In this document: piece after piece, positions 17,861-39,464 of the stretch
Layout of the letters: every line of letters begins with the position of its first letter
Numbering within the stretch: position 1 is the stretch's first letter
Origin: Puniceicoccaceae bacterium
GTDB taxonomy: Bacteria; Verrucomicrobiota; Verrucomicrobiia; Opitutales; Coraliomargaritaceae
Direction: 5' to 3'
NCBI GenBank assembly: GCA_007692545.1
Contig: REBV01000129.1
Span: 1-39,906 of the forward strand
DNA length: 39,906 nt
Translations under genes and position numbers: made by a program
Notes under the pieces: generated by a model
What the model was told of the DNA's origin: nothing
The model's database searches: none
Seen by the model: only the letters and a program-made list of their open reading frames with translations

Positions 17861-18715
17861 CTACGCGCTTACATAGGCCAATTGCAGCAGTGCTTTAAGA
17901 CGCTCAACTTCATCACTGGAGGTTTTGGCAATGAAGCCCCGCGCGTGCGTAAAGTGCACATCAGTCTCTTCATCCAAGCGGGTGAATTCCATAGCCGGAT
18001 CGTCTTGAAAACGGCGCAGGCCATAGCCCTCGCCGCGGCTGTCCGGATAGACCAGCGCCCGTATTTCGCCCTCCATGCCGAGCTTCGCTACATGGTAGCC
18101 CATCCCCGCAGAAGCGTCTTCCGGTAGTGACTCCGTGCGTGGTAAGTAGAGTGCCTTAAAGCCGTCAAAGGCCCAGACTTCGGCGTGCTCGGCGACGAAA
18201 GCAAGGCGTTCTTTCAGGTTCGTCACGTAGTCCACCAGATCCTGACCAATCATTCGCATGACCTCCCAGACGGGCTCTCCCGGCTTGTGCTCCGTTCCGT
18301 TGGCGAAACGTCGTATTAGAGTGATATCGAGTGGCGAGTTAAGTCGGCCCACCAGCTCACGGTCGATGCCCAGCCATTCTGCCGTATCTGCTGGGCCCCT
18401 GCAATCAAACCACTCAGCCACTTCCAGCCAGCTGCAAAATTCGCGTGCCGATTCATAGATACCGAGGTGTTGCAGGACGAGTGAGAGTGCGCAAGTAGGG
18501 ACATGATCCCGGGGCAGTTGATGGTGGTCGAAGTTGTGTTGGTCCGGTGCGTGCTGATGGCCGACATCGACGACAGCCACACTTGGGTCGTCGAGGTCCT
18601 GTTCGGTCGGGTCACGGCGCAGGATGGGGACCGGAGCTAGGGTGAGGAGCACCGCGCAGGCTAAAAAGTCGTCTTTGTGGGCACCGCCCGGGTGAGTGAT
18701 TATGGTTTCGATCAT
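17861..18715 (-). CDS. MYG1/UPF0160-family metal-dependent hydrolase
   Basis: A 284-residue protein of the MYG1 family, a DHH-like metal-dependent hydrolase group; eukaryotic members are described as RNA exonucleases. Hallmarks are the N-terminal THPGGAHKDDFLACAVL (His8, His13, Asp15/16), DVGHQ, NFDHHQ, and the C-terminal ARGFIAKTSSDEVERL-type element. The substrate in bacteria is uncertain. It converges on mrdA with an 8-base gap and is divergent from miaA, with 128 bases between starts. Both miaA and MYG1-type proteins may touch RNA metabolism, though nothing shows a direct link. Confidence 0.85.
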   Translation of the reverse strand: MIETIITHPGGAHKDDFLACAVLLTLAPVPILRRDPTEQDLDDPSVAVVDVGHQHAPDQHNFDHHQLPRDHVPTCALSLVLQHLGIYESAREFCSWLEVAEWFDCRGPADTAEWLGIDRELVGRLNSPLDITLIRRFANGTEHKPGEPVWEVMRMIGQDLVDYVTNLKERLAFVAEHAEVWAFDGFKALYLPRTESLPEDASAGMGYHVAKLGMEGEIRALVYPDSRGEGYGLRRFQDDPAMEFTRLDEETDVHFTHARGFIAKTSSDEVERLKALLQLAYVSA

Positions 18716-19983: not shown

Positions 19984-21087
19984 CTAGGAGGGGTGTGTGC
20001 GGAAGGCCTTCGGTGAGTGACCGCTTTGCTTTTTGAACCAGGCGGAAAAGTGGTGGGGTTCGGGATAGCCGCAGCGGTGCCCGACTTCCATCACAGGGAG
20101 GGTGCTTTGGTTCAATAGTTCCCGGGCCAGTTTTAGCCGGTGTTCGCTCAATTTACGGTAGGGGCTGGTCTTGAACTGAGCACGAAAGGCTTGTTCGAGC
20201 GAGCGGCGGGAGACGCCGAGTGTCTCCGCCAAGCTTCCGACATCGAGCGTGGCCTCACCCAGATGCTCCTGGATGTAGTTGGCCGCCCGTTGGGCCAGGC
20301 GCGCCGGCCCGGGAGCCAGGCTGGACTCGCGGGAAATCAGTTGGGCCGGACTGGCGAAGCTCAACCATTCACCATCGCCTTTTCCAGCCTTCAATTGATC
20401 CAGCCGCCGAGCCGCCCGATAGCCGATTTCCTGGGTCGGCAATTGAAAACTACTGATCCCGATCTCGGCGAAGATGGATTCGGGTGGCTCGTTGCCGACA
20501 CCCAGCACCAGTAAGTCCTGCCCAATCTGCCAGCCCAGGTTTCGGGCCGCGATGATTAAGTCTCTGGCCAGGCGATCGCTGGCACAAAAAACACCGACGG
20601 GTCGGGGTAACTCAGCCAAGGCCGCTAGGACGGCCTTCACCGGTGGCCCCGCCCGTAGATCCTGAATACGTTCCCCGGGGAGGACGCTCATGAAGCCAGC
20701 CCGACGCAGTTGATTATAGTGAACTCGATCCGCGCTGTAAATGGCATAGCTTCGAGCCGCCTGTGCCTGCAAGTGCCGCCCCGCCTCGACCCCGAGGGCA
20801 AAGTCATCCACACTGACACTGGGAATACAGCGAATCTCAGAAAACTGAAATAGATTGACCGCCTCCACATGATAGTCCCGCAAAGCCGCAACCCAGCGGT
20901 CGCTGACGAAGCTCCCAATGACGCCACTAAGCTTTCCAGAGGCCGCCAATTGCATGAGTCGCTCCTCGAAGCCGAAGTTGAGCGGTAGTAGCTGCCAGTC
21001 CAGTTTGGCCTGTGCAAGGTAATCGGTCACGCCAGCAAAGATCTCCGCCGCATGACGGAAATTCAAATCAAAGGCGACGGCCACCAT
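19984..21087 (-). CDS. AraC-family regulator with XylR-like sensor domain
   Basis: A 367-residue transcription regulator. The N-terminal two thirds resembles a periplasmic-binding-protein/LacI sensor (MVAVAFDLNFRHAAEIFAG, then SVSVDDFALGVEAGRHL, VFCASDRLARDLI and GVGNEPP), as in E. coli XylR. The C-terminal part is an AraC-type double helix-turn-helix (DVGSLAETLGVSRRSLEQAF and MEVGHRCGYPEPHHFSAWFK). Such proteins usually bind a sugar and activate sugar-use genes; the ligand here is unknown. A TTG start at 21105 would add six residues; the ATG at 21087 is better placed. It is divergent from gmd, with an AT-rich 99-base gap that holds a tandem 8-base repeat, so it may control itself or gmd-fcl, but this is inference. 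Confidence 0.88.
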   Translation of the reverse strand: MVAVAFDLNFRHAAEIFAGVTDYLAQAKLDWQLLPLNFGFEERLMQLAASGKLSGVIGSFVSDRWVAALRDYHVEAVNLFQFSEIRCIPSVSVDDFALGVEAGRHLQAQAARSYAIYSADRVHYNQLRRAGFMSVLPGERIQDLRAGPPVKAVLAALAELPRPVGVFCASDRLARDLIIAARNLGWQIGQDLLVLGVGNEPPESIFAEIGISSFQLPTQEIGYRAARRLDQLKAGKGDGEWLSFASPAQLISRESSLAPGPARLAQRAANYIQEHLGEATLDVGSLAETLGVSRRSLEQAFRAQFKTSPYRKLSEHRLKLARELLNQSTLPVMEVGHRCGYPEPHHFSAWFKKQSGHSPKAFRTHPS

Positions 21088-21130
21088 GGATTCGGGCGTT
21101 TTCAATGAATTTTACGCATATATATAAAAA

Positions 21131-25687: not shown

Positions 25688-27028
25688 ATGAAACAACGAA
25701 CTATTCTGAGGGAAGTCTCGATCAAGGGGAAATCCCTGCACACGGGCGAAGAAGTCCACCTCACGCTGAAGCCGGCGCCGGAAAACACCGGCGTCGTCTT
25801 CCGGCGGATCGACCTCTTTGGCAAGCCCGAGCTGAAGCCGCTGATTGAACTGGTGGATGATCTCGTGCGCAGCACCACCATCGCCGATGGCCACGCTAAG
25901 GTGCACACGATTGAGCATGTGCTGAGTGCCCTCAGCGGGTGTGGAGTCGATAACGTTGTGATCGAGATGGATGCCAGTGAGCCGCCCATCCTCGATGGCT
26001 CGGCCAAGCACTTCGTCAACCTGATTCAGGAGGCGGAGCCGGTGGAGCAAGATGCCGAGCGCGAGTATTTTGTGCTGGAGGAGCCGATTTCGGTGACGCG
26101 GGGCAGTAGCTCGATCATCGCCCTGCCGCACGATGGCTTTCGCATCACCTGCACTTCCGCCGACGACCGGGGCATTCATACCCAGCACCTGAGTCTCGAT
26201 ATCGACCCGGAGACCTATATCGCGCAAGTCGCCCCCGCCCGCACCTTTACCATTTACGAAGACATCGAGGAGTTGCTCAAGCTGGGCAAGATCAAGGGCG
26301 GCAGTCTGGATAGCGCGATCGTTATTAAGGGCGATAAAATCGTCTCGAAAGAGCCGCTGCGCTTCAAGGACGAGTTTGTCCGGCATAAGATACTCGATAT
26401 CATCGGCGACATCACTCTGATTGGTCGGCCGATCAAGGCACACATCGTCGGGGTGCGCCCTGGCCATGCCCTGAATGCCGAGCTTTCCAAGGTGCTGCGT
26501 AAGAAGATCCTGGCAAAGATCCAGGGGGCAAAAAAGAAAAAGGCGGATGCCAAAAAGCCCCTGACTCTGCTGGACTCGACCGAGAGCACGATGGATATCC
26601 GCCGGGTGCTCGACATCCTGCCGCACCGTTATCCCTTCGTGATGATCGACCGGGTGGTGGAGATTGTCAGTGAAGATGAGTTGGTCGCATTGAAAAATGT
26701 CACCATCAATGAGCCCTATTTCCAGGGGCACTACCCCGGCCGCCCCGTCATGCCGGGGGTCCTTCAGGTAGAGGCCATGGCCCAGGCGGCGGGCGTGCTT
26801 CTCTTGCGCAAGCTGCCGGTCGAAGAGAACAAAATCGCCTTTTTTATGAGCGTCGACAAGGTGAAATTCCGCCAGGCGGTCGAGCCGGGCGATTCCATTG
26901 AGATCCGGGTCAAGTTGATCAAGATCCGGGGGAATAAGATCGCCACCGCCACCGGCGAGTGTAAGGTAGGCGGTAAAGTTGTCTCCAGTGCCGAGCTGAT
27001 GTTTATGCTGGCTGACGCTACCGAATAA
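25688..27028 (+). CDS. lpxC/fabZ: LpxC-FabZ fusion (deacetylase plus dehydratase)
   Basis: A bifunctional 446-residue protein. Residues 1 to about 275 are LpxC, the zinc enzyme that commits UDP-3-O-acyl-GlcNAc to lipid A synthesis: zinc ligands His77 ([11 protein letters not shown]), His233 and Asp237 ([10 protein letters not shown]), and catalytic His260 (GH). A lysine-rich linker at about 275-290 leads to FabZ from about residue 300, the hydroxyacyl-ACP dehydratase of fatty acid elongation, with His348 ([16 protein letters not shown]) and Glu362 as the catalytic pair. Fusing the two links lipid A and phospholipid synthesis, which draw on the same hydroxyacyl-ACP pool. Such fusions are established in Bacteroidetes and some related phyla. 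lpxA follows after 15 bases. Confidence 0.97.
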
Positions 27029-27043: not shown

Positions 27044-27820
27044 ATGCCTACGGACATACATCCGACTGCGATCATAGAGCCCGGCGCCGAATTGGAAACG
27101 GGTGTCGTGGTTGGCCCTTACGCCTATATCGGCCCCATGGTTAAAATCGCTCAGGGTACCGAAGTCATGCACCACGCCACTGTCGATGGGGCCACCACGA
27201 TGGGCCCGGATAACGAAGTGCATCCCTACGCTTATATCGGCGGGAAGACCCACGACCTGAAGTACACCGGTGGCTGCCCGGGTTTGAAGATCGGGTCGAA
27301 TAATGTCTTTCGCGAGTTCACCACGGTACACTGTGCCACGGCTGAAGGCACCGACACCATCGTGGGTGACCATAACCTGCTCCTTGCCTACAGTCATATC
27401 GCGCACGAGTGTATCGTGGGCAATCACCTCGTCATGAGCAGTCACGCGGCCCTGGGTGGGCATGTGCAGATCGGCGACCGCGTCAATATCGGCTGGGGGG
27501 TCGGGCTGCACCAGTTTTGCCGGGTGGGGGATTATGCGATGGTCGGTGCCGCTTCGAAGGTGGTGCAGGATGTGCCGCCTTATATGATCGCAGACGGTAG
27601 CCCGGCTATGGTCCGCACGACGAACAAGGTCGGCCTGGAGCGCGCCGGATTTTCGGCGGACGACCTCAACTTAATTCGGCGCGTCTTTAAAATGTTTTAC
27701 AAGGAAGGCCTCAACCGTCGTCAGGCGGCGGAGAAACTTCGCGCCGAAACGTCGGGCGATCATATTGTGGTGCAGACTTTTCTTGCCTTTGTTGAAGGCA
27801 GTGAGCGGGGCTTGTCCTGA
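27044..27820 (+). CDS. lpxA: UDP-GlcNAc acyltransferase
   Basis: Catalyses the first step of lipid A synthesis by adding a hydroxyacyl chain from acyl-ACP to UDP-GlcNAc. The N-terminal two thirds is a left-handed beta-helix of hexapeptide repeats, and the active-site histidine motif is [12 protein letters not shown], equal to AHIAHD in E. coli. [15 protein letters not shown] and the C-terminal helical region with [19 protein letters not shown] complete the family pattern. At 258 residues the length is normal. It probably shares a transcript with lpxC-fabZ and converges on the LOG-family gene with 25 bases between stops. Confidence 0.95.
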
Positions 27821-27845: not shown

Positions 27846-28898
27846 TTAAACCAAGCGCTCGACGGTGGGGATGATTTCGTCGAGTTCATTGACCACGACG
27901 AATAGATCCTCATCACACCACGGCTCCAGCAGTGCCAGGAGTTTGTCCCAGAAGCGGACGCCGGTGCGTTCGTCTTTCCGGTTAAAGACAATGACGGGCT
28001 TGCCCTGCATGAGTGCGTTGCCTGTTTGCTTGAAGATGAGCAGGGCGAGCATTTCCTGCACGGTGCCGGAACCTCCGGGGAAGATGACGAAGGCTTCGGA
28101 GCGCTCGATCATCACCTCCATCCGGGTATAAATGTCCGGGCGCAACCAGAAGCTGGAAAGTCCGTCCGGTAGGCCTTCGATTTCGATGATGTGGGGCACA
28201 TTGGAGCCCCCGGTCCAGCCACCCGCATCGACGGAGCCGCGCACGACCGAGCCCATCACGCCGGTCGTGCCCGCGCCGGATACGCAACCGTACTTGTTTT
28301 CAGCCAGTAATTGGCCCAGACGATAGCCGTCTTCAATATAGTTTTCATCGCGAATACTGGCGGAGCAAAATACGCAGACACTGCCGCGATTGTCTGCCGG
28401 CAGGGGGGTCTCGAAGGAGTCGGTTGGCTGAACATGGATTCTCTTGCGCCCGGCATCGGGGATGCCCTCCTGCATGACTTTTTCGAGGTGTGCCAGGACG
28501 GACTTCGGCTCGTCCGCCATCAGCAGGAATTCGCGGTAGTTTTGATGGATGGTTCCGAGTCGCTGCAGCTCGCCGAGCAGATCAAAGAGTGGCGTCCACG
28601 AATGATCCGAATTCAAAATAACGGCCGCCTTGCCCTTGAGGTTGGGGTCGAGCGTCTGGTAGCCGACAAAAATGGAGACTGCCTTGAAGAGGTCTTCCAG
28701 CGAGGCGCCGGGCATGAAGACAAAGGCGTCCGAGGCGAGTATTTTGGCCTCGATGTTGGAGAGGGTGATTCGCTGGTCTCCATTTGAGTTATCGATGTCC
28801 CAGCCACTGGCAAAGAGCTGATAAAGCATGCGGGCACGCATCTCACGATTGGGGTCGTGTGAGCCTGTAACGGTTCCGGAAAGTCTGACGATGGGCAT
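27846..28898 (-). CDS. LOG-family protein with an internally duplicated fold
   Basis: A 350-residue cytoplasmic protein. The C-terminal half (residues about 173-350) is a LOG-type Rossmann domain: VCVFCSAS, SGAGTTGVMG, and the nucleotide-site motif PGGSGTVQE (274-282). Known members cleave nucleoside 5'-monophosphates to free base and ribose 5-phosphate. The N-terminal half (about 1-145) repeats the fold in degenerate form: SDAFVFMPGASLEDL (56-70) matches SEAFVIFPGGSGTVQEM (267-283), and LKGKAAVILN (87-96) matches MQGKPVIVFN (297-306), but its PGGxGTxxE motif is lost. In the C-terminal domain the usual MxxRK element reads YTRM, so activity is likely but not assured. It sits 20 bases after adenine deaminase on the same strand. 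Confidence 0.85.
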   Translation of the reverse strand: MPIVRLSGTVTGSHDPNREMRARMLYQLFASGWDIDNSNGDQRITLSNIEAKILASDAFVFMPGASLEDLFKAVSIFVGYQTLDPNLKGKAAVILNSDHSWTPLFDLLGELQRLGTIHQNYREFLLMADEPKSVLAHLEKVMQEGIPDAGRKRIHVQPTDSFETPLPADNRGSVCVFCSASIRDENYIEDGYRLGQLLAENKYGCVSGAGTTGVMGSVVRGSVDAGGWTGGSNVPHIIEIEGLPDGLSSFWLRPDIYTRMEVMIERSEAFVIFPGGSGTVQEMLALLIFKQTGNALMQGKPVIVFNRKDERTGVRFWDKLLALLEPWCDEDLFVVVNELDEIIPTVERLV

Positions 28899-28918: not shown

Positions 28919-30727
28919 TTAAATCGAGAGCGTCTCGACCAGTGGCAGAATTTCCATACCGGGCACAGTAATCAAGCCCTTATCGGTCAGGCGGATATCC
29001 GGGATGACCGAGAGCGGCAGCAAGTTGAAGCCCATGTAGGGGAGTATACAGCCGAGCTCAGTCCATGCCTTTTTCAAGGCGGTGGATTCTCTGGCCACGA
29101 TGGTCGCCCGTTTGTCGGAAAGCAGGCCCGCTATCGGCAAGTCCACTTTGGCGATGACCCGGCCTGCCGACACCACGACGACGGCGCCCTGGGTCTTTTC
29201 GATTTCGGCCAGTGCCAGCCGCATATCGGCCTCGTTGGTGCCGGCCATGACGATATTATGGGCATCGTGCCCGACACTACTGGCCACCGCGCCGTTTTTC
29301 AGCCCGAAGTTTTGCAGCAGCCCATAGCCGACGCCACCATTCTGGCCATAGCGCTCAATCACCGTCAGGTAGCAGAGGTCGTTGGCTTCGAGCACGGGGG
29401 CCCAGGCCTCGGGTGCGGCATCCAGTTCGACCGTGCGGTGGAGTGTGACAATGCCGGGCAACTCGGCGCGCAACAAATTCAAGCGGCAGGGCCCGGTGGG
29501 TAGATCGGGCAGGAGCTTCGGTGCTTCCGGCAGCTTGACGGTTTGGTAGGCCGCCGGAGGATAGGTGTAGGCGTCTTCGCTCAGAGTCTTTTCCAACAGA
29601 GGCGTCACCCGCTTGTCTTCGACTACCAGTTCGCCGCCAAACCAGGTATTCTGCACCTCGAATTGATCGTTGAGGAGGACCAGGTCGGCCCGGCGACCGC
29701 CGCCGAGTCCGCCGAACTCGCCGTCCATGGCGTAGCGGGTGGCTCCGTGTAAAGAGCCGGCACTCCAGGCCAGCTCCGGAGTCATACCGGCTTTGATCGC
29801 CTGGCGTGCCACCCAATCCATGCCAAAGAGAAAGAGGTCGTCCGCGTCGCGGTCGTCTGTGCAGAGGCAGACGCGCTTGGCGGATGCCCTGTTTTCGGTG
29901 ACTGGCTTGATGGCTTCGGGCAGGCTGTTCCAGGGCGTGGTGGGCGGGCCTCCGCGCAGGAAGATCCAGACGCCGGCTTCGAGTAGATCGTCGGCGATGT
30001 CCTGGCTGATCGCTTCGTGCGTATCCGTCACACCGGCAGCGGCGTAGGCACTGACAAACTCGCGCCCGTAAATGTGCCCGCAGACTGGCTTGCCCCGCTT
30101 CAGCGCTTCGGCGATGATGGCGTGCGAGCGTTCGTCGGACTGGCAGACCTGCACAAAGTCCATCTTCTCACCCAGTGCCACGGCTTCCGGCCACCGATCA
30201 AAGATGCCCGCAATGCGCTCCGGTGTCAGGTCGCCACCCGCAGTCTCGTACTTGGGCGAGGTGGCCGGCACGGTGCTGGGCACGGTGAGAAAAATGTTTA
30301 AAGCGGCCTTGCGGGCATCTTCCAGCATCCACTCGATGCCATCGACACCGGCCACGTTACCGATCTCGTGGCTATCACAGAAAATCGTGGTGGTGCCGTT
30401 GAGCAGGGCCGCCTCAGCGTAGGCGCAGGCGGTCATCATACTGCTTTCAATATGAATATGCGGGTCGACCAGGCCGGGCGCCAGGATGCCTCCCCGGCCG
30501 TCGTAGTAGCGCGTATCCAGATTTAAATGACGGGCCGTCCCGCTTGGCTGACGGCAGGCGATGCGCCCGTGTTTCAACCAGAGCTCGCACTCCGGTAGGA
30601 TACGTTCCGAGTAAGTGGACAGGAGACGTACGCCGGTGATGACGAGATCCGGTGATCGTTTTTGCAGGGCCACCTGTGCTAGCTCGCGGGTGACTTGATG
30701 GAGGGGAGCGATGGTGTTGAGTGGCAT
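28919..30727 (-). CDS. ade: Adenine deaminase
   Basis: Converts adenine to hypoxanthine and ammonia; an amidohydrolase needing a divalent metal centre. The 602-residue sequence has the metal-site motif [16 protein letters not shown] (His90, His92), the SHEIGNVAG and GHIYG stretches, DTHEAIS, and [11 protein letters not shown] with its metal-binding Asp. The C-terminal part with GGVGYGLL and [14 protein letters not shown] is typical of the prokaryotic AdeC family. Its start lies just after a run of GTGGAGT-type repeats, giving a CA-rich, G-poor mRNA leader. A LOG-family gene follows after 20 bases; the amidase gene precedes it by 107 bases. Confidence 0.94.
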
Positions 30728-30834: not shown

Positions 30835-31791
30835 CTAATCGATAAAAATGGCTTCCGGTAGGTAGCTGGTAACGGTGTAGTGGGGCAGGTTGACGACTTG
30901 ACTGAGCTTCAGGTCGAGTGCGGCCGAGCAGACCAGAAAGGCCTGTTCGGGGCTGAGGCCTATCCGCGTTTGGATATAATCGATGGCCCGGCGAACGGCG
31001 TTCTGTGCATTGACCTTGATGTCCGGCCCGCTGGAGACAAAGGCATGAAAGGGCTTGCCCGCGTAGGCGGGGGGCGTCAGATCGGGCGTGGTGAGGATGT
31101 AGGGCTCAGTCACGGAGACCGTATCAGAAATACTGATGCGCAATTTCACATCCATTGGAGCTTCCAGGCCGTTGATCGATACTTCGCCATCGCCCTGGGC
31201 GGCGTGTGCGTCGCCGGCGCAGAGCCGGCCACCCGCGACTTGCACCGGCAGGTAGAGGGTACTGCCGGCCACGAGGTGTTTGACATCCATATTGCCCCCG
31301 AAAGCGCCCGGAGGACGGGTGCGGAACTTGCCTGCTTCTTTGCGTTGCAGTCCGATAATGCCACAAAACGGGTGGAGGGCGAGTTTGATGCCCGGCATAC
31401 TTTCGCTGAAATCGCCGTCGAGTGTCCAGTGGTGCAAATAGAAGTCTGAAAAGTCTTCGGGTAAAAAGCACCGCTCTGGATTGACGCTTTGCCAGGCCCA
31501 GCCTTTGTGCGCATATTCAAGAATCTCGATCTTGAGTGTGTCGCCGGGCTTTGCGCCCCGCACGGCCACCGGGCCGGTCAATGAGTGAATGAGTTCAAAA
31601 TCGATGTTCTTAAAGGCTTCGGTCGTCATGCCCGGGGTGACTTGGCTATCGCTGGAGTCAGCCATCTCGATCAGGATGCTATCGCCGGATTCGATCTCAA
31701 TTCGAGGTTTTAGCGCATTGTCCCAGCGGTTGTGGGTAATGGATTTGTCGAGGTGATGGTGCATGATCGGGTTGTTGGCTGGGGATTTCAT
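30835..31791 (-). CDS. Acetamidase/formamidase-family protein
   Basis: A 318-residue amidase that would hydrolyse a small amide such as formamide to an acid and ammonia. Family pattern includes GPVAVRGAKPGDTLKIEI near the N-terminus, PFCGIIGL, PPGAFGGNMDVKHL, VAGGRLCAGDAHAAQGDGEV and the acidic/His pair in between. It lies upstream of ade on the same strand, separated by 107 bases, and is divergent from guanine deaminase. In this setting formamide released during purine catabolism is an appealing substrate, but that is inference; acetamide or another amide could be correct. The ATG at 31791 is used. Confidence 0.85.
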   Translation of the reverse strand: MKSPANNPIMHHHLDKSITHNRWDNALKPRIEIESGDSILIEMADSSDSQVTPGMTTEAFKNIDFELIHSLTGPVAVRGAKPGDTLKIEILEYAHKGWAWQSVNPERCFLPEDFSDFYLHHWTLDGDFSESMPGIKLALHPFCGIIGLQRKEAGKFRTRPPGAFGGNMDVKHLVAGSTLYLPVQVAGGRLCAGDAHAAQGDGEVSINGLEAPMDVKLRISISDTVSVTEPYILTTPDLTPPAYAGKPFHAFVSSGPDIKVNAQNAVRRAIDYIQTRIGLSPEQAFLVCSAALDLKLSQVVNLPHYTVTSYLPEAIFID

Positions 31792-32140: not shown

Positions 32141-33490
32141 ATGCTTGAGACAGACCCCAGGTTTAAAGTCTTCCGCGGTGCGTTTATTCAATCGATCAGC
32201 GATCAGCGCGCTGAGTTCATTCCCGATGGGTTGGTGCTGGTTGCGTCAGCGGGCGAAGACTGCGGGCGCATTGTAGCCATGGGTGAGACCGCTCGGGTGG
32301 CCGCGGCCTACGGCCTGGAACTCAAAGACGAGTCGCCGGGGCAGGGCACGCATGTAGCGGGCGATCTGTGGCTACCGGCTTTTTTCGACACGCATTTTCA
32401 TTGGGTGCAGGATGCGGTGCGCGAGATGGCGAAGTATTCGCTGATTGAGTGGCTCAATAACATTACCTTTCCCGAGGAGGCGAAGTTTGCCGATGCGGCA
32501 TTTGCTGATAGGCAGGCGAAACAGTTTTGGGAAAGTATCCTGAGCCTGGGTACGGTCGGTGGGCTCTGCTACAGCTCGATTCATGAAGTGGCATTGGATG
32601 CAGCGATGCAGTGGGCACCGGCAGACTTTTATATTGGCAACGTGCTGATGACGATGGAGTGTCCGGACTATCTGCAACAAAGCGAGGCGGATGCCATCGC
32701 GATTGTGCAAAGCTGTGCCCGCCGCTATGGCCGGCGTTATATCGCCAGCCCCCGTTTTGCGCCGACGACGGCTCCGGCTGTCATGCGGGCAGCGGCAGAG
32801 GCCGCTCAAGCGAATGCCGCTTTTCAGCAAACCCATCTGGGTGAGACCTTGGCTGAAATTGACTGGGTACTGGATATTTACCGAAAGCTGCCCGGGTTTG
32901 AAGACGTGGGCTCTTATACTGAGATTTATCAACGGGTCGGTATGTTGGGTGAGCAGTCTGTATTCGGACACTGTATACATCTGACAGCTGATGAATGGCG
33001 TCTCTTGGCGGAATCGGGCAGTCGTATCGCCAGTTGCCCCACCTCAAATGCACCGGTCGAGAACATGGGCTTGGGCTCGGGTTTGTTCGACTACCCGACG
33101 GCCGAAGCCTACGGGGTGCCCTGGTCGCTGGCTTCGGATATCGGCGGTGGGCCTTACCTCTCGATGTTTGATGTGATGCATTCCTTCGTTTGGCAGAATC
33201 GTGCCATCGGCCGGGCCGATGCGACCTACACGAAAGCGCTCCACCGTGCGACGAGTCAGGGTGCCAAACTGATGGACCTGCCGGATCGTGGGGTGCTGCG
33301 TGAAGGCGCTTTTTTCGATGCGATCCGCCTCCGGATGCCGCAGGGGCAGTTTACTGCGGGGGATGCAGAGCCCATCCTGGCAGCTTTTTTTGAGCAGATC
33401 CCGGATCGGAAATCGACCGAAACACTGGTGCAAGAGACCTTTGTTAAGGGGGAATCACGTTTTAAGCGGGGGGCATCCACGTGCGATTGA
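32141..33490 (+). CDS. guaD: Guanine deaminase
   Basis: Deaminates guanine to xanthine in the cytoplasm. This 449-residue amidohydrolase has the zinc motif PAFFDTHFHW (His85, His87), followed by the guanine-deaminase signature IEWLNNITFPEEAKFAD, SPRFAPTT, the QTHLGE histidine, FGHCIHL and the Asp in SDIGGG. The usual PGFxDTHxH motif reads PAFFDTHFH, a small change that keeps the ligands. It opens the plus-strand arm of the purine locus; its last 10 bases overlap xdhC, so guanine-derived xanthine and its oxidase are made together. Confidence 0.95.
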   Translation: MLETDPRFKVFRGAFIQSISDQRAEFIPDGLVLVASAGEDCGRIVAMGETARVAAAYGLELKDESPGQGTHVAGDLWLPAFFDTHFHWVQDAVREMAKYSLIEWLNNITFPEEAKFADAAFADRQAKQFWESILSLGTVGGLCYSSIHEVALDAAMQWAPADFYIGNVLMTMECPDYLQQSEADAIAIVQSCARRYGRRYIASPRFAPTTAPAVMRAAAEAAQANAAFQQTHLGETLAEIDWVLDIYRKLPGFEDVGSYTEIYQRVGMLGEQSVFGHCIHLTADEWRLLAESGSRIASCPTSNAPVENMGLGSGLFDYPTAEAYGVPWSLASDIGGGPYLSMFDVMHSFVWQNRAIGRADATYTKALHRATSQGAKLMDLPDRGVLREGAFFDAIRLRMPQGQFTAGDAEPILAAFFEQIPDRKSTETLVQETFVKGESRFKRGASTCD

Positions 33491-34464
33491 GCGAATTCTG
33501 GCACCAGGCCTTGGCGGAGCTGCGCTCCGGGAAGCCTGTCTATGCCTGTTGGGTCGTCGATCACCGCAAGGGCTCGCCGGGCACGAAGTCGGCGCGTATG
33601 CTGCTGACTCTGGCCGGGCGGCAATATGGCACGATCGGCGGGGGGATCATGGAGCAGAACGAGCTGGAGATGGCGGCGGCATGCCTCGCGGCTGATAGCC
33701 TGCCCAGCCCTGAGCTGCAGACGATCGAACATCGGGAGGCTGCGGGGGAATCGGCCTCGGGCTTGATTTGCGGTGGAGCGCAAACCAACCTGCGTTTTAT
33801 ACTCAGCCCGCAGCGGCATCTTGAGGCGGTCGAAGCCATTGCGAAGGCGGCGAAAGAAGAAGCGCACTGTGTGGTTTGTATTGATAGTCGTGGCATCCAT
33901 CTGTGTGGGGTCGCCGGGCCCTGGGTGGGCGATGCGGTGAGCTTGCTAGGCGGTGATACGGAGCAGTGGGAGGCGCAGGCATATCTTAGAAACCTGCGGC
34001 GCATCGCTATCTTTGGCGGTGGTCACTGTGGGGCGGCTTTGGCCCGCTTGATGCTGGGTCTGGGCTACGCGGTTTCCGTAATCGAGCCCCGCCGCGAGGT
34101 CCTAAAGGCGGCGGGTCTGCCCAGGTGCGTAACCCGCATTATTCAACCATTTGAGACGGGGGCGTCGTCGGTTGCTTATCCCGAGGATACGCTGGCCGTG
34201 GTCATGACCTATTCGATGCTGTCCGATGTGGAGGCGCTGGCCGCAGCCATACCGTGCGGGTTTCAATCGATCGGTGTCATGGGGAGTCGTCCGAAAATCG
34301 CTCAAATCCGCTCCAGAATGCTGAAAAAAGGTATCGCACGCTTGCAAGTCGATGCGATCCGTGCACCAATCGGCTTGGCGTTTAACAGCGACACACCGGA
34401 GGAAATCGCGCTTAGCGTGGCGGCTCAGGTTCTTTTAGACAGGGAGGGAAAAAACTATGGTTAA
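33481..34464 (+). CDS. xdhC: Xanthine dehydrogenase accessory protein XdhC
   Basis: Binds molybdenum cofactor, helps its sulfuration and inserts it into XdhB; it is not part of the finished enzyme. The 327-residue protein has an N-terminal XdhC/CoxI domain (HRKGSPGTKSARMLL, GTIGGGIMEQNE, GLICGGAQTNL) and a C-terminal Rossmann domain (IAIFGGGHCGAALARLM, GVMGSRPK, RAPIGLAFNSDTPEEIALSV). It begins with a GTG inside the end of guaD, and its stop overlaps xdhA by 8 bases. Confidence 0.93.
   Translation: MRLSEFWHQALAELRSGKPVYACWVVDHRKGSPGTKSARMLLTLAGRQYGTIGGGIMEQNELEMAAACLAADSLPSPELQTIEHREAAGESASGLICGGAQTNLRFILSPQRHLEAVEAIAKAAKEEAHCVVCIDSRGIHLCGVAGPWVGDAVSLLGGDTEQWEAQAYLRNLRRIAIFGGGHCGAALARLMLGLGYAVSVIEPRREVLKAAGLPRCVTRIIQPFETGASSVAYPEDTLAVVMTYSMLSDVEALAAAIPCGFQSIGVMGSRPKIAQIRSRMLKKGIARLQVDAIRAPIGLAFNSDTPEEIALSVAAQVLLDREGKNYG
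34442..34447 (+). promoter_or_regulatory. xdhA: Shine-Dalgarno site of xdhA
   Basis: GGGAGG lies 9 bases before the xdhA ATG, inside the end of xdhC. Few genes in this window have such a site, so it helps set the start and the level of this subunit. Confidence 0.6.
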
Positions 34465-35926
34465 TTTTCATCACTCGATCCAATTCATTCTCAACAACGA
34501 GGCTGTGTCGACAGATGTGCCACCGGGAACGCTCGCCCTCGATTATGTCCGGCAACAGCTCCAACTGAACGGAACCAAGTCTGGTTGTAAAGAAGGGGAT
34601 TGCGGGGCCTGCACCGTGATCGTTGGGCAACTGGATGCCGCGGGCAAGCTGCGCTATCTACCCATGACCTCCTGCCTGCTCCCGGTCGGGGAGTTGCAGG
34701 GTAAGCATCTCGTCACGATTGAAGGACTCAATATGCCGGCGCTCTCTCCGGTGCAGCAAGCGATGGTCGATACCGGTGGCAGTCAATGCGGCTACTGTAC
34801 GCCCGGTTTTGTGGTGGCGATGACAGCCGGGCTGATGGAGCCGAAACTGCCGCTCAATGCAAAAGGGGCGCTTCACGCCATCTCAGGGAATCTGTGCCGT
34901 TGCACGGGTTATCGATCGATCAAGGCAGCCGGGCTCCAGGTCATCGAAGAGCTGGCGCATAAATTGCAAGCGGGCGACCGGGTCGGCTCACTGGTTGAGG
35001 CCGGTGCCCTGCCGGACTATTTTAAGGGCATCGAGACGCGGCTTCAAGCGATGCAACCCGATCCGGGTAGTCCCGCGGTCGATACACCGAAAGGGGAGAA
35101 GCAGGGGCCGCGTGTCATCATCTCCGGAGGGACCGATCTGTACGTGCAGCGGGGCGATGAGTTGCCCCATGCCGACGTCGTCCTGTTGAACAATCGGCCG
35201 CCGATTGAAGCACCCGAGTTGCGCCAGGGGCGTGTTTGCTTCGATGCCCGGATGACCTTCGAGGCCTTTGCCGAAGATCCGCTGATACTGCGTCACCTGC
35301 CGGACATGCCGGCCTATAATGATCTCATTGCCAGTTGGCCCATGCGGACACGCTCGTCCATCGGTGGTAATATTTGCAATGGTTCCCCCATTGCCGATAT
35401 GACCTGCCTGCTGCTGGCGTTGGAGGCCGAACTGACGCTCAGCGGTAGCGATGGGAGGCAGCGCACAGTTCCGCTGCGGGAGTTTTACCTGGGCTATAAA
35501 CAGCTGAATAAAAAGCCGGATGAGATCGTTGAGGAAATTTCCTTCCCTGCCTTTGATGCGAGCAGCCGGGTCAATTGGGAGAAGGTCTCCAAGCGTGCCT
35601 GGCTGGACATCGCGACGGTCAATTCGGCTTGTAAAGTTCGGGTGGAGGCTGGCCTGGTGACAGCAGCTCATCTGGCTCTGGGCGGTGTGGCGGCGACTCC
35701 CCTCTATCTATCCCAAGCCAGTCGCTATCTGGAGGGCAAGCCGCTCGACGCAGCCAGCATTCATGGATGCATCGAAGTCGCCATGGGTGAGTTCACCCCC
35801 ATGAGCGATGTGCGGGGCAGTGCTGATTATAAACGCCTGCTGGCCCGGCAGCTCTTGCTCGTCCACTTCGAGAAACTTTTTCCGGAAACCATCGAACAGG
35901 AGGATCTCTATGCGCCACTTCGATAG
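34457..35926 (+). CDS. xdhA: Xanthine dehydrogenase small subunit (iron-sulfur and FAD)
   Basis: Carries electrons from the molybdenum site to the final acceptor. The N-terminal 150 residues bind two [2Fe-2S] clusters: Cys44, Cys49, Cys52 and Cys73 for the ferredoxin-type cluster, and Cys111, Cys114, Cys147 and Cys149 for the second. A linker leads to the FAD-binding domain (from about residue 210: IISGGTDLYVQ, then RSSIGGNICNGSPIADM). The length of 489 residues is normal for the two-cluster-plus-FAD subunit of the XdhAB type. Its last 17 bases overlap xdhB. Confidence 0.95.
   Translation: MVNFHHSIQFILNNEAVSTDVPPGTLALDYVRQQLQLNGTKSGCKEGDCGACTVIVGQLDAAGKLRYLPMTSCLLPVGELQGKHLVTIEGLNMPALSPVQQAMVDTGGSQCGYCTPGFVVAMTAGLMEPKLPLNAKGALHAISGNLCRCTGYRSIKAAGLQVIEELAHKLQAGDRVGSLVEAGALPDYFKGIETRLQAMQPDPGSPAVDTPKGEKQGPRVIISGGTDLYVQRGDELPHADVVLLNNRPPIEAPELRQGRVCFDARMTFEAFAEDPLILRHLPDMPAYNDLIASWPMRTRSSIGGNICNGSPIADMTCLLLALEAELTLSGSDGRQRTVPLREFYLGYKQLNKKPDEIVEEISFPAFDASSRVNWEKVSKRAWLDIATVNSACKVRVEAGLVTAAHLALGGVAATPLYLSQASRYLEGKPLDAASIHGCIEVAMGEFTPMSDVRGSADYKRLLARQLLLVHFEKLFPETIEQEDLYAPLR
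35898..35903 (+). promoter_or_regulatory. xdhB: Shine-Dalgarno site of xdhB
   Basis: A perfect AGGAGG lies 6 bases before the ATG at 35910. It decides the start over an in-frame upstream codon at 35808, whose added residues have no family match. Confidence 0.75.
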
Positions 35927-38219
35927 TTCACTTCACGTCAGCGGGCGTTCTCAATATATTGACGATGTGCCCGCACCGCAGGGCATGTTGCACGCCGCCG
36001 TCTTTGGCTCACCGATTGCGCATGGCAAGATCGGCTCGCTCGATCTCGAGGCGGCCCGCGCCTATCCCGGCGTGCATGCCGTCTTTACCCACGGAGACAT
36101 CCCCGGTCACCCCTTCATCGGGGCGCTGGTCCAGGACGAGGCGCTCCTGGCCAAAGACGAGCTGCGCTTCCAGGGGCAACCAATCGCACTCATCGTGGCG
36201 GAGACCCATGAGGCCGCGCGCGAAGCAGTCAAACTATGCTCGGGCACTTTTGAGGAGCGCCCCGTCATCACCTGCCCGCGCGAGGCCTACGCGCGGGGCG
36301 AACTCTTGCAGGAAACACGTATTTTTGAAAAAGGCTCGGTCGATGCTGTTTGGGATCAATGCGATCATGTGATCGAAGGTGCGATCGATTTGGGCGGTCA
36401 GGAACACCTCTACCTCGAAACCAACCGCGCCCGGGCCATCCCGCGCGAGGATGAGCAGATGCAGATCTTCTCCTCCACCCAGAGTCCGAGCGCGGTGCAA
36501 AAATGCGTCGCCCAGGTCATCGGCCTGCCCATGCATAAGGTGGAGGTGGATGTGAAGCGTCTCGGTGGCGGCTTCGGCGGCAAGGAGGATCAGGCCACGC
36601 AGTGGGCCTGCATGGTCGCGGTGGCGGCCAAGCTGCTCGAACGGCCGGTCCAGATTGTGCTCAGCCGGCCCGACGACATGCGGATGACGGGCAAGCGCCA
36701 CCCCTACAAGCAGGACTTCAAGATCGGCCTCAACGCGGCGGGTAAGATCCTCGCCTACGAGGTCTCCCACTTTCAAAACGGGGGTGCCTACATGGACCTG
36801 TCGGCTCCCGTGCTGGAGCGCACCGTCCTGCACTCGACCAATGCCTATGCCTTGCCCAACGTGCGCATCCGGGCTGCTTGTTGCCGCACCAATCTCCCGC
36901 CAAATACGGCCTTCCGCGGCTTCGGCGGGCCACAGGGGATGTTTCCGCTGGAGGTGGCGATTGAAAAGGCTGCGGTGGCCATGGGCGTCACACCCGAGTG
37001 GATACAGTCGCGTAATTTAATGCAAGATGGCTACGTCTTTCACTATGGCCAGGAGGTCGAAGCTTGCAATATGCAGCGGACCTGGGACGAAGCGATGGAA
37101 CTCTACCAGGTCGAGGCCACCCGCGAGCGTATCCAAAAATTCAATGCGGAGAACGCCTATAAGAAAAAGGGCTATGCGCTGATGCCGGTTTGCTTCGGTA
37201 TCAGTTTTACCAAGACCTTTCTGAATCAGGGCAGCAGCCTGGTGCATGTGTATACGGATGGTTCTGTCAGTGTGACGACCGGTGGTATCGAGATGGGGCA
37301 GGGGGTTTCCTCCAATATGGTTGCCATCTGCGCCAGAGTCTTCGGCATTTCACCCGAGCGCGTGCGCTGGACCAGCACCAATACCAGCCGCATCGCCAAT
37401 ATCTCGCCGAGTGCCGCCAGTGCCACTTCCGATCTGAATGGCAATGCCACCATCATAGCCTGTCGTGAAATATTTGCCGGTATGCAGGGCGTCGCCGCCT
37501 TGGAGCTGGGCTGTGCCCCGGAGGCGGTCTCGCTGCGCGATGGGGTGGTCTATCAAAATGATGCAGCGACCGGGCTGACCTGGGAGGCCCTCGTTTTGAA
37601 GAGTTACTTCGCGCGCGTCCAACTGATGGCGCACGGCTTCTACGCGCCACCCAACATTCACTACGATGGGGTCAAGGGCTATGGGCGACCCTTTCACTAC
37701 TACACTTACGGCACCTGTCTGGTCGAGGCCACGGTCGACTGCGTGCGCGGCACCTACAAGCTCGACGCATCGCGTATCGTGCACGACCTGGGTCGCAGCA
37801 TCATCCCGGTCGTCGATCAGGGGCAAATCGAGGGCGGACTGGCTCAGGGTATCGGCTGGGTCACGCTGGAAGAACTGGCCTACAACGAGGACGGGCGACT
37901 CACCTCGCAGGCACTTTCGACCTATAAAGCGCCCGATGCCGAATTTATGCCCGATGTGATGGAGCTGAAGTTGCTCGAAAACGTGGAAAATCCCGGTGGT
38001 CCCTTGGGTAGTAAAGCGGTCGGCGAACCGCCGTTTATGTATGGGATGGCTGCCTTTTTCGCTATTAGAAGAGCGATTGACTCGTTTAGCTCGCTGCATA
38101 AATTCGAGCAAGAAGTGAGTTGCCCTGTCACTCCGGAACGGGTCTTGCTATCACTTTACCCGAACTTCGCCAGTAAGCCGGTAGCTTCGGATGCTCCCAA
38201 GACCGGTCAAGCTGTCTAA
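35910..38219 (+). CDS. xdhB: Xanthine dehydrogenase large subunit (molybdenum)
   Basis: Catalytic subunit that hydroxylates hypoxanthine to xanthine and xanthine to urate at a molybdenum-cofactor site. The 769-residue protein starts with the aldehyde-oxidase-like hammerhead domain (GRSQYIDDVPAP, HAAVFGSPIAHGKI). The cofactor-binding regions follow: GGGFGGKEDQATQWA, RGFGGPQGMFPLEVAIEKAA, EMGQGVSSNM and the C-terminal KAVGEPPFMYG with catalytic Glu706. Length and order match bacterial XdhB. It follows xdhA with a strong ribosome-binding site inside the overlap. Confidence 0.96.
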   Translation: MRHFDSSLHVSGRSQYIDDVPAPQGMLHAAVFGSPIAHGKIGSLDLEAARAYPGVHAVFTHGDIPGHPFIGALVQDEALLAKDELRFQGQPIALIVAETHEAAREAVKLCSGTFEERPVITCPREAYARGELLQETRIFEKGSVDAVWDQCDHVIEGAIDLGGQEHLYLETNRARAIPREDEQMQIFSSTQSPSAVQKCVAQVIGLPMHKVEVDVKRLGGGFGGKEDQATQWACMVAVAAKLLERPVQIVLSRPDDMRMTGKRHPYKQDFKIGLNAAGKILAYEVSHFQNGGAYMDLSAPVLERTVLHSTNAYALPNVRIRAACCRTNLPPNTAFRGFGGPQGMFPLEVAIEKAAVAMGVTPEWIQSRNLMQDGYVFHYGQEVEACNMQRTWDEAMELYQVEATRERIQKFNAENAYKKKGYALMPVCFGISFTKTFLNQGSSLVHVYTDGSVSVTTGGIEMGQGVSSNMVAICARVFGISPERVRWTSTNTSRIANISPSAASATSDLNGNATIIACREIFAGMQGVAALELGCAPEAVSLRDGVVYQNDAATGLTWEALVLKSYFARVQLMAHGFYAPPNIHYDGVKGYGRPFHYYTYGTCLVEATVDCVRGTYKLDASRIVHDLGRSIIPVVDQGQIEGGLAQGIGWVTLEELAYNEDGRLTSQALSTYKAPDAEFMPDVMELKLLENVENPGGPLGSKAVGEPPFMYGMAAFFAIRRAIDSFSSLHKFEQEVSCPVTPERVLLSLYPNFASKPVASDAPKTGQAV

Positions 38220-38237: not shown

Positions 38238-39464
38238 ATGAGTTCAGAGCTAATCGAATTTCTCAATGTAATCTTCCGTTACATCCACGTCGTCGCCGCC
38301 ATTATGTGGATCGGCAACTCACTCTTGTTCACCTGGATGGAGGTCAACTTCGTGAAAGACCCGAAGAAGGGCCCGAACTCCATCGGCGAGATGAATATGC
38401 TGCACGCGGGCGGCGTCTATTTCCTCGAAAAGCGCGTCATTGATCCGAACAATATTCCGCCCAAGCTGCACGTCTTCAAGTGGCAGTCTTACACCACCTG
38501 GCTGAGTGGCTTTGTGCTGCTGGTCGCGGTCTTCTACTCACGGCCGGGCACGCTTTTGCTCGACCCCTCCAAGACCGACATGGCGGGCTGGATGGCCACG
38601 GTCATTAGCCTGTCTTCGCTGGTGATGGCCTGGGTGGTTTACGACCTTTTGCTCAAGACGCCGCTCAGGAAAAACACGGTCGCGGTGATGGCCACGCTCG
38701 CCTTGCTCCTGCTCGGCTATATGATCTGGATCGACGGGTTTTTCAGTAGCCGCTTCGTTTATCTGCAAGTCGGTGCCATGCTGGGCACGATCATGAGCGC
38801 CAATGTCCGCTTCGTGATCATTCCCAATCAGAAAAAAATCATGGAGAACCTCAAGGCCGGGCGCCCCCATGATTTGGAGATCGGGCGTCAGGCCAAGCTG
38901 CGCTCACTGACCAATCACTATGTGACTTTTCCGGTCATTTTTCTGATGCTCAGCGCGCACTTCCCGTCGCTCTACGGCGACCCTTATTACATAGCCATCG
39001 CTGCCGTCATTATCGTCTGTCTGATCATTATCAAATGGATGATGAATATCTACAATGAGTTCAGCGAGTGGCTCTACGTGGCCCTCGCCTGTTTCATTCT
39101 GGGTTCCTGCGCGGTTATCGGGCTGAAGTATGTGTCCAGCCATACCAGTGGGGGCGGGGGGCCGGCCCTCGCTATTGATGATCCGATCCGCCTGGGCCAG
39201 CAGCTGTATCAAAGAAACGGCTGCATGGTCTGCCACCAACTGGTCGATACCACGGTCGCGCCGACTCTCCACGGCATCTACGGCACCGAGCGGCGGCTCA
39301 CCAGCGGCGAAACCGTCCTGGCCGACGAGGCCTACCTGATCGAGTCGATCATGGATCCCCGGGCTAAAATCACCCAGGGCTACGCCGCCTCCATGCCCGG
39401 TTACGAGACTGTCTTTAACGAAGAAGAGCTTGCCCACTTGATTGCTTACATCCGTTCGCTTTAA
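38238..39464 (+). CDS. puuD: Membrane urate oxidase (PuuD type) with cytochrome c domain
   Basis: Oxidises urate to 5-hydroxyisourate. Unlike soluble uricase, which uses oxygen and makes hydrogen peroxide, PuuD-type enzymes sit in the inner membrane and hand electrons to a fused cytochrome c. The 408-residue protein has about eight transmembrane segments in its first 300 residues, with conserved HVVAAIMWIGNSLLF and the HAGG/FLEKR stretch. A glycine-rich linker (SGGGG) leads to a cytochrome c domain with heme motif Cys329-Met-Val-Cys332-His333 and the axial Met386 in SMPGY. It lies 18 bases after xdhB and 16 bases before the aminotransferase gene, so it completes a chain from xanthine. Confidence 0.9.
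   Translation: MSSELIEFLNVIFRYIHVVAAIMWIGNSLLFTWMEVNFVKDPKKGPNSIGEMNMLHAGGVYFLEKRVIDPNNIPPKLHVFKWQSYTTWLSGFVLLVAVFYSRPGTLLLDPSKTDMAGWMATVISLSSLVMAWVVYDLLLKTPLRKNTVAVMATLALLLLGYMIWIDGFFSSRFVYLQVGAMLGTIMSANVRFVIIPNQKKIMENLKAGRPHDLEIGRQAKLRSLTNHYVTFPVIFLMLSAHFPSLYGDPYYIAIAAVIIVCLIIIKWMMNIYNEFSEWLYVALACFILGSCAVIGLKYVSSHTSGGGGPALAIDDPIRLGQQLYQRNGCMVCHQLVDTTVAPTLHGIYGTERRLTSGETVLADEAYLIESIMDPRAKITQGYAASMPGYETVFNEEELAHLIAYIRSL

Follow-up and report, generated by a model that had tools for sequence, protein, structure and literature searches.

The closest described relatives of the protein analysed here are the type I and type II LOG enzymes, such as CgLOG (PDB 5ITS and 5ZBL), AtLOG3 and TtLOGII (1WEK), which are single-domain proteins that form dimers or hexamers. 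In CgLOG, the pocket is located at the dimer interface, where Glu125 and Trp129 on the side of the base are supplied by the neighbouring subunit, and little activity is left when an AMP-binding or catalytic residue other than Ser19 is replaced by alanine (PMC4979012). A further point of comparison is PpnN (YgdH), in which extra domains are likewise added to a LOG-type core, PAG1 and PAG2 flanking it on both sides, and for which the presumed reaction is the conversion of an NMP to a base and ribose 5-phosphate. PAG2 has structural elements in common with the second LOG monomer, and duplication has been suggested as the source (Baerentsen, Brodersen and Zhang, PMC6717881). With regard to genomic context, the PuuD urate oxidase and the purine-utilisation clusters that contain it have been described (PMC4562309).

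The window, a stretch of 39,906 nucleotides (contig REBV01000129.1 of assembly GCA_007692545.1, Puniceicoccaceae bacterium), encodes a LOG protein in which each chain contains two halves, one of them degenerate (Table 1), whereas the known LOGs have a single domain. The C half adopts the same fold as type I and type II LOGs and carries their Arg, Glu and PGGxGTxxE motif; the N half adopts this fold minus one stretch. The protein scores 106.7 bits against TIGR00730 (NCBIfam), a model of one domain with 178 positions, and thus passes the curated cut-off of 96.35, as well as 88.7 bits against PF03641 (cut-off 27); TIGR00730 is also matched by 73 of 73 aligned relatives. The start codon and the full length are kept among relatives. 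The HMM score, the catalytic motif of the C half and the Rossmann-like LOG fold place the protein in the LOG/TIGR00730 superfamily. The reading preferred here, with a probability of roughly 0.6, is that it would act as a LOG-family nucleotide 5'-monophosphate nucleosidase that supplies base catabolism and in which a built-in dimer partner is provided by the N half; activity, substrate and geometry are all inferred.

Table 1. Positions of the two halves, their key residues and the neighbouring genes within the window.
Feature	Position	Strand	Basis
Two-half LOG/TIGR00730-family protein, complete ORF, 350 aa	27846..28898	-	ATG start; TIGR00730 match
N half (residues 1-147), a shortened LOG fold whose catalytic site is degenerate	28458..28898	-	AlphaFold2, PDB matches, PF03641
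Asn48 at the catalytic Arg position, N half	28755..28757	-	Asn in 73/73; profile alignment, codon check
PGASLED, residues 63-69, degenerate counterpart of PGGxGTxxE	28692..28712	-	Two residues shorter (PGA--T)
N-half helix alpha5, residues 67-84, most conserved N-half element	28647..28700	-	Mean column entropy 0.49 bits
Linker, residues 148-171	28386..28457	-	Sequence variable, modelled with confidence
C half (residues 172-350), LOG catalytic domain intact	27849..28385	-	PF03641 E 4.9e-25; Foldseek to LOG, TMt 0.8
Arg259, catalytic, C half	28122..28124	-	Invariant in 73; equivalent to CgLOG Arg99 (PMC4979012)
Residues 274-282, PGGSGTVQE, including the catalytic Glu282	28053..28079	-	Column counts, alignment
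Adenine-deaminase-like gene, directly upstream of the LOG gene	28919..30727	-	Pfam Adenine_deam_C 1.7e-49
FmdA/AmdA acetamidase/formamidase-family gene, beside the purine genes	30835-31791	-	
Guanine-deaminase-like gene, divergent from the LOG gene	32141..33490	+	NF006679 5e-75, TIGR02967 2e-72, both below cut-off
XdhC accessory factor, XdhA and XdhB subunits (xanthine dehydrogenase)	33481..38219	+	TIGR02964, TIGR02963 E 2.5e-103, TIGR02965 E 1.2e-238
PuuD-type membrane cytochrome c urate oxidase	38238..39464	+	Urate_ox_N 5.9e-87 and Cytochrom_C (Pfam)

A first-pass annotation of the window had proposed that the protein is an internal duplication, on the basis of the cores SDAFVFMPGAS/SEAFVIFPGGS and LKGKAAVILN/MQGKPVIVFN in residues 54-106 and 265-324. 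These cores are present as quoted, and the likeness of the halves is borne out by a BLASTP comparison of the two (E 9e-5, residues 47-96) and by a profile-profile alignment built from the 73 relatives (probability 97.4%, E 1.6e-11, score 73, 82 columns). The similarity is in fact broader than had been noted, with residues 48-140 pairing with about 259-348. The reversed control profile scores 23 and 59 column shuffles score at most 26, which rules out a chance likeness. Additionally, PF03641 is matched by the first 150 residues alone at E 5e-5 and by 72 of the 73 N halves of the family. The score of the isolated N half against the single-domain TIGR00730 model is 16 bits.

The structural prediction that the first-pass annotation had suggested as a check leads to the same result. 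When folded alone with AlphaFold2, the N half is modelled at a pLDDT of 91.9, and its 18 best matches in the PDB are all LOG proteins (Foldseek, prob 1.00), the best being 5zbl_C (CgLOG with AMP; E 1.9e-5, TMq 0.74); the N-half profile also matches CgLOG and AtLOG3 in the PDB. An unrelated N-terminal domain is ruled out by this LOG fold of the isolated half. A comparison of the two halves reveals a difference in that the N half runs beta1-alpha1-beta2 and then directly alpha4-beta5-alpha5-beta6-alpha6-beta7-alpha7, so that the alpha2-beta3-alpha3-beta4 stretch of the C half has no counterpart, which makes the N half a truncated LOG domain rather than a full duplicate. The proposal of an internal duplication thus stands as an internal repeat, which is seen in the profiles, the predicted structure and the 73 aligned relatives, and falls as a whole copy. 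The full-length model, for which an alignment of 73 fairly similar sequences was the input, has a pLDDT of 93.2 and a pTM of 0.92, and again matches LOG in Foldseek (prob 1.00, best E 4.1e-11). The linker is variable in sequence (2.4 bits, residues 145-171) and confidently modelled (pLDDT 84-96), from which it follows that the halves are held in a set position relative to each other in the model.

How this repeat arose is addressed by a tree of the halves with 41 single-domain LOGs, in which the N halves form one group (support 100/99) and the C halves another (99/99). The best tree joins the N halves with the C halves against the single-domain LOGs, at a support of 94/69 and at a point where long branches meet under limited sampling, and a longer QT...L-GK loop is common to both halves and absent from type I LOGs. 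These observations favour internal duplication over the fusion of two paralogues, although the joining of long branches at 94/69 falls short of proof. A separate LOG paralogue fused upstream, in which case the common fold would reflect old family kinship with no internal duplication, would agree with that modest support and with the last third of the N half, which matches type I LOGs such as CgLOG; given the grouping and the common loop, this origin is considered rather unlikely.

The catalytic residues are distributed unequally between the halves. As the first-pass annotation had stated, the PGGxGTxxE motif is confined to the C copy. Glu282, which corresponds to CgLOG Glu122, is invariant (73/73), and the phosphate-loop residues (PGG-x-GT) of the C half are nearly so. 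At the position of the catalytic Glu, the N half carries Asp69 (Asp in 67 and Glu in 6 of the 73 members). Because the Arg position is Asn and the phosphate loop is shortened, and because such residues are essential in CgLOG, no LOG catalysis by the known mechanism is expected from the N half. The earlier description of this half as dead therefore holds for canonical catalysis; it does not hold in the sense of decay. Over 31 pairs, the N half has a median dN/dS of 0.068 and the C half one of 0.077, and a decaying or pseudogene half is ruled out by the value of about 0.07 together with 77 relatives that are nearly all full length. This equal purifying selection and the absence of a stand-alone N half from the 388 genomes scanned suggest that it is catalytically dead yet needed. 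Within the N half, column entropy is lowest in alpha5, followed by beta5 (0.58 bits) and the beta2 loop (0.70 bits), and reaches 1.7-2.3 bits in alpha6/alpha7; the helix equivalent to alpha5 carries Glu125 and Trp129 in CgLOG, which reach into the pocket of the partner (PMC4979012).

The C-half site also differs from that of the cytokinin-activating LOGs. Met96, His97, Lys100 and Glu121, which contact the base or prenyl group in CgLOG, are replaced by Ile256, Tyr257, Met260 and Gln281, each in 73/73, and the score against the cytokinin-activating model (NF058542) is 67.4 bits, below the equivalog cut-off of 300. The altered or regulated site suggested by the first-pass annotation is conjectural; the base-contacting residues are altered and fixed family-wide. 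Gln281, which stands in place of the adenine-contacting Glu/Asp, could change or abolish the activity. In the stretch around the catalytic Arg, the C half (PDIEKRLEAF) is closer to E. coli PpnN (PDIYTRMEVM) than to the cytokinin LOGs (MHERK). The PpnN equivalog itself is matched at 36.5 bits against a cut-off of 450. Additionally, PAG1 and PAG2 have no sequence likeness to the N half (hhalign probability <1%), which rules out the N half as a PpnN PAG domain, so that the two-half LOG would be a parallel to the PpnN case rather than the same one. An anti-phage SLOG protein was ruled out by the absence of a PADLOC match.

The search for homologues of the same architecture, also proposed in the first-pass annotation, yielded 77 relatives in genome contigs at roughly 47-82% identity. 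Most are from Verrucomicrobiota; a few carry the label Pseudomonadota or Bacteroidetes. An assembly artefact is ruled out by the occurrence of the same layout in many independent genomes. In both half-trees, one sequence labelled Bacteroidetes (L014) is the partner of a sequence from Puniceicoccaceae, and another labelled Endobugula, Gammaproteobacteria (L066) lies near Puniceicoccaceae in the C-half tree; in view of this placement, both may be misbinned or transferred. When 388 genomes of the phylum were scanned with the N-half profile, strong matches were obtained in 12 genomes and were long fused frames, save one gene split across two contigs, whereas weak matches were ordinary single-domain LOGs; no stand-alone N half was found among the 388. 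The plasmid collection contained single-domain matches only, none covering 80% of the two-half query. Annotation pipelines would name such proteins simply TIGR00730 family. An earlier description of a fused two-half LOG was not found in the literature searched, coverage of which was incomplete; by that literature, the arrangement appears to be a previously undescribed architecture within a known enzyme family.

The gene neighbourhood points toward nucleobase catabolism. The adenine-deaminase-like gene lies on the same strand as the LOG gene with a gap of 20 nt, and the two are likely co-transcribed. Its product matches TIGR01178 at E 8e-106 with 354.7 bits, below the cut-off of 472.5, and the guanine-deaminase-like protein scores 244.6 against an equivalog cut-off of 375.4; both are divergent members, as these missed NCBIfam cut-offs indicate. 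The FmdA/AmdA-family enzyme might have a small amide product as its substrate. The window has genes for guanine deaminase, xanthine dehydrogenase and PuuD in common with the PuuD purine-utilisation clusters (PMC4562309); in the literature searched, no description of such clusters was found that includes a fused LOG next to adenine deaminase. In the host genome (assembly 92.6% complete), one PNP_UDP_1-family gene was found, and neither a second LOG-family gene nor an IU-type nucleoside hydrolase. Elsewhere in the window, an LpxC-FabZ fusion of 446 aa (25688-27028, + strand; LpxC domain 3-270, FabA/FabZ-like domain 311-435) is followed by an LpxA-like gene (27044-27820), and the window also encodes a MYG1/UPF0160-type protein (17861-18715, - strand), of which the Pfam match covers the first 67 residues only, and a XylR-like regulator (19984-21105, - strand) with a LacI-type ligand-binding domain and an AraC-type HTH_18.

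Across the family, nucleobase-catabolism genes flank 37 of the 77 fused loci versus 0 of 20 single-domain LOG loci of the same phylum (Fisher p 1.8e-5, which is overstated since the loci share ancestry). A yeast-type cytosine deaminase that strongly resembles yeast Fcy1 (PDB 1uaq, E 1.6e-45) recurs at 29 of the 77 loci (L007, L048 and 27 others), and its gene and the fused one stand head-to-head in nearly all of them. Allantoin clusters (allantoinase, allantoate amidohydrolase, ureidoglycine aminohydrolase) occur at about nine loci, in some cases together with xanthine dehydrogenase. At about half of the 77 loci, the flanks, many of them cut by contig ends, hold none of the catabolic genes that were looked for; one relative of 82% identity (L002) has none of them within 8 kb. 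A fixed neighbourhood is ruled out, as the layout of the window is approached only by one other locus (L005) and by a genus relative (L175) whose adenine deaminase is 81% identical. The partner deaminase varies by lineage, so no single substrate is implied, and for this reason, as well as the relative without the sought genes, the link between the fused LOG and base catabolism is statistical.

In the proposed mechanism, PGGSGT of the C half would hold the phosphate while Arg259 and Glu282 cut the base-ribose bond, which would release the free base from an NMP and leave ribose 5-phosphate. The N half, with catalysis lost and the beta5-alpha5-alpha6 region (the LOG dimerisation segment) retained, would pack on the C half in place of a second LOG monomer and wall off the only active site on the side of the base; the enzyme would thus be asymmetric, with one working site per chain. 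The base would then pass to adenine deaminase, guanine deaminase, xanthine dehydrogenase and urate oxidase in the window, or to cytosine deaminase or the allantoin-degrading enzymes in many relatives.

The two-half model (pTM 0.92) and the retained elements are consistent with such a built-in pseudo-dimer, and the same model is compatible with a C-half homodimer or a higher oligomer. Characterised LOGs are all dimers, or hexamers of symmetric dimers (PMC4979012, PMC5379747), and the oligomeric state of type II LOGs is set by extra N-terminal elements, so that the C halves of two chains might form an ordinary symmetric LOG homodimer to which the N half is appended for oligomerisation or partner binding. 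This arrangement is judged improbable, because the dimerisation segment is retained in the N half as its most conserved part and the relative placement of the halves is predicted confidently within one chain. By analogy with the PpnN gating domains, which respond to (p)ppGpp (PMC6717881), the N half might instead be an allosteric domain, with a base, nucleotide or alarmone bound in its degenerate pocket and the C-half site under its control as a gate. The polar residues Asn37, Asn39, Gln42, Asn48, Asp69, Thr82 and Asp84 of the beta2 loop and beta5-alpha5 are strongly conserved, which speaks for such a pocket, and PAG2 has elements in common with the second LOG monomer; an interface role could also account for this conservation, and with no sequence likeness to PAG1 or PAG2 the allosteric role is regarded as unlikely.

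For the family as a whole, a wider proposal is held more tentatively than the built-in dimer partner, at somewhat less than even odds: through duplication, the LOG homodimer would have become an asymmetric pseudo-dimer in one chain, founding a conserved class of nucleotide nucleosidases. The dead half would form the base pocket of the live half, or a gate for it that senses ligands, and would thereby shift the enzyme away from cytokinin-type substrates and towards the ordinary nucleotides needed for base catabolism. If the pseudo-dimer is real, a catalytic homodimer has become an enzyme and a pseudoenzyme within one gene, the route suggested for the alarmone-gated PpnN (PMC6717881), and if duplication also holds, the protein offers a parallel, visible in sequence, to the duplication route proposed for the PpnN gating domains. 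The two-half chain provides a natural experiment on LOG dimerisation, in which the catalytic and pocket-shaping halves are separable by mutation. The bacterial LOGs, widespread and poorly understood, would gain a concrete role that is open to experiment, in the breakdown of purines and pyrimidines instead of hormone activation.
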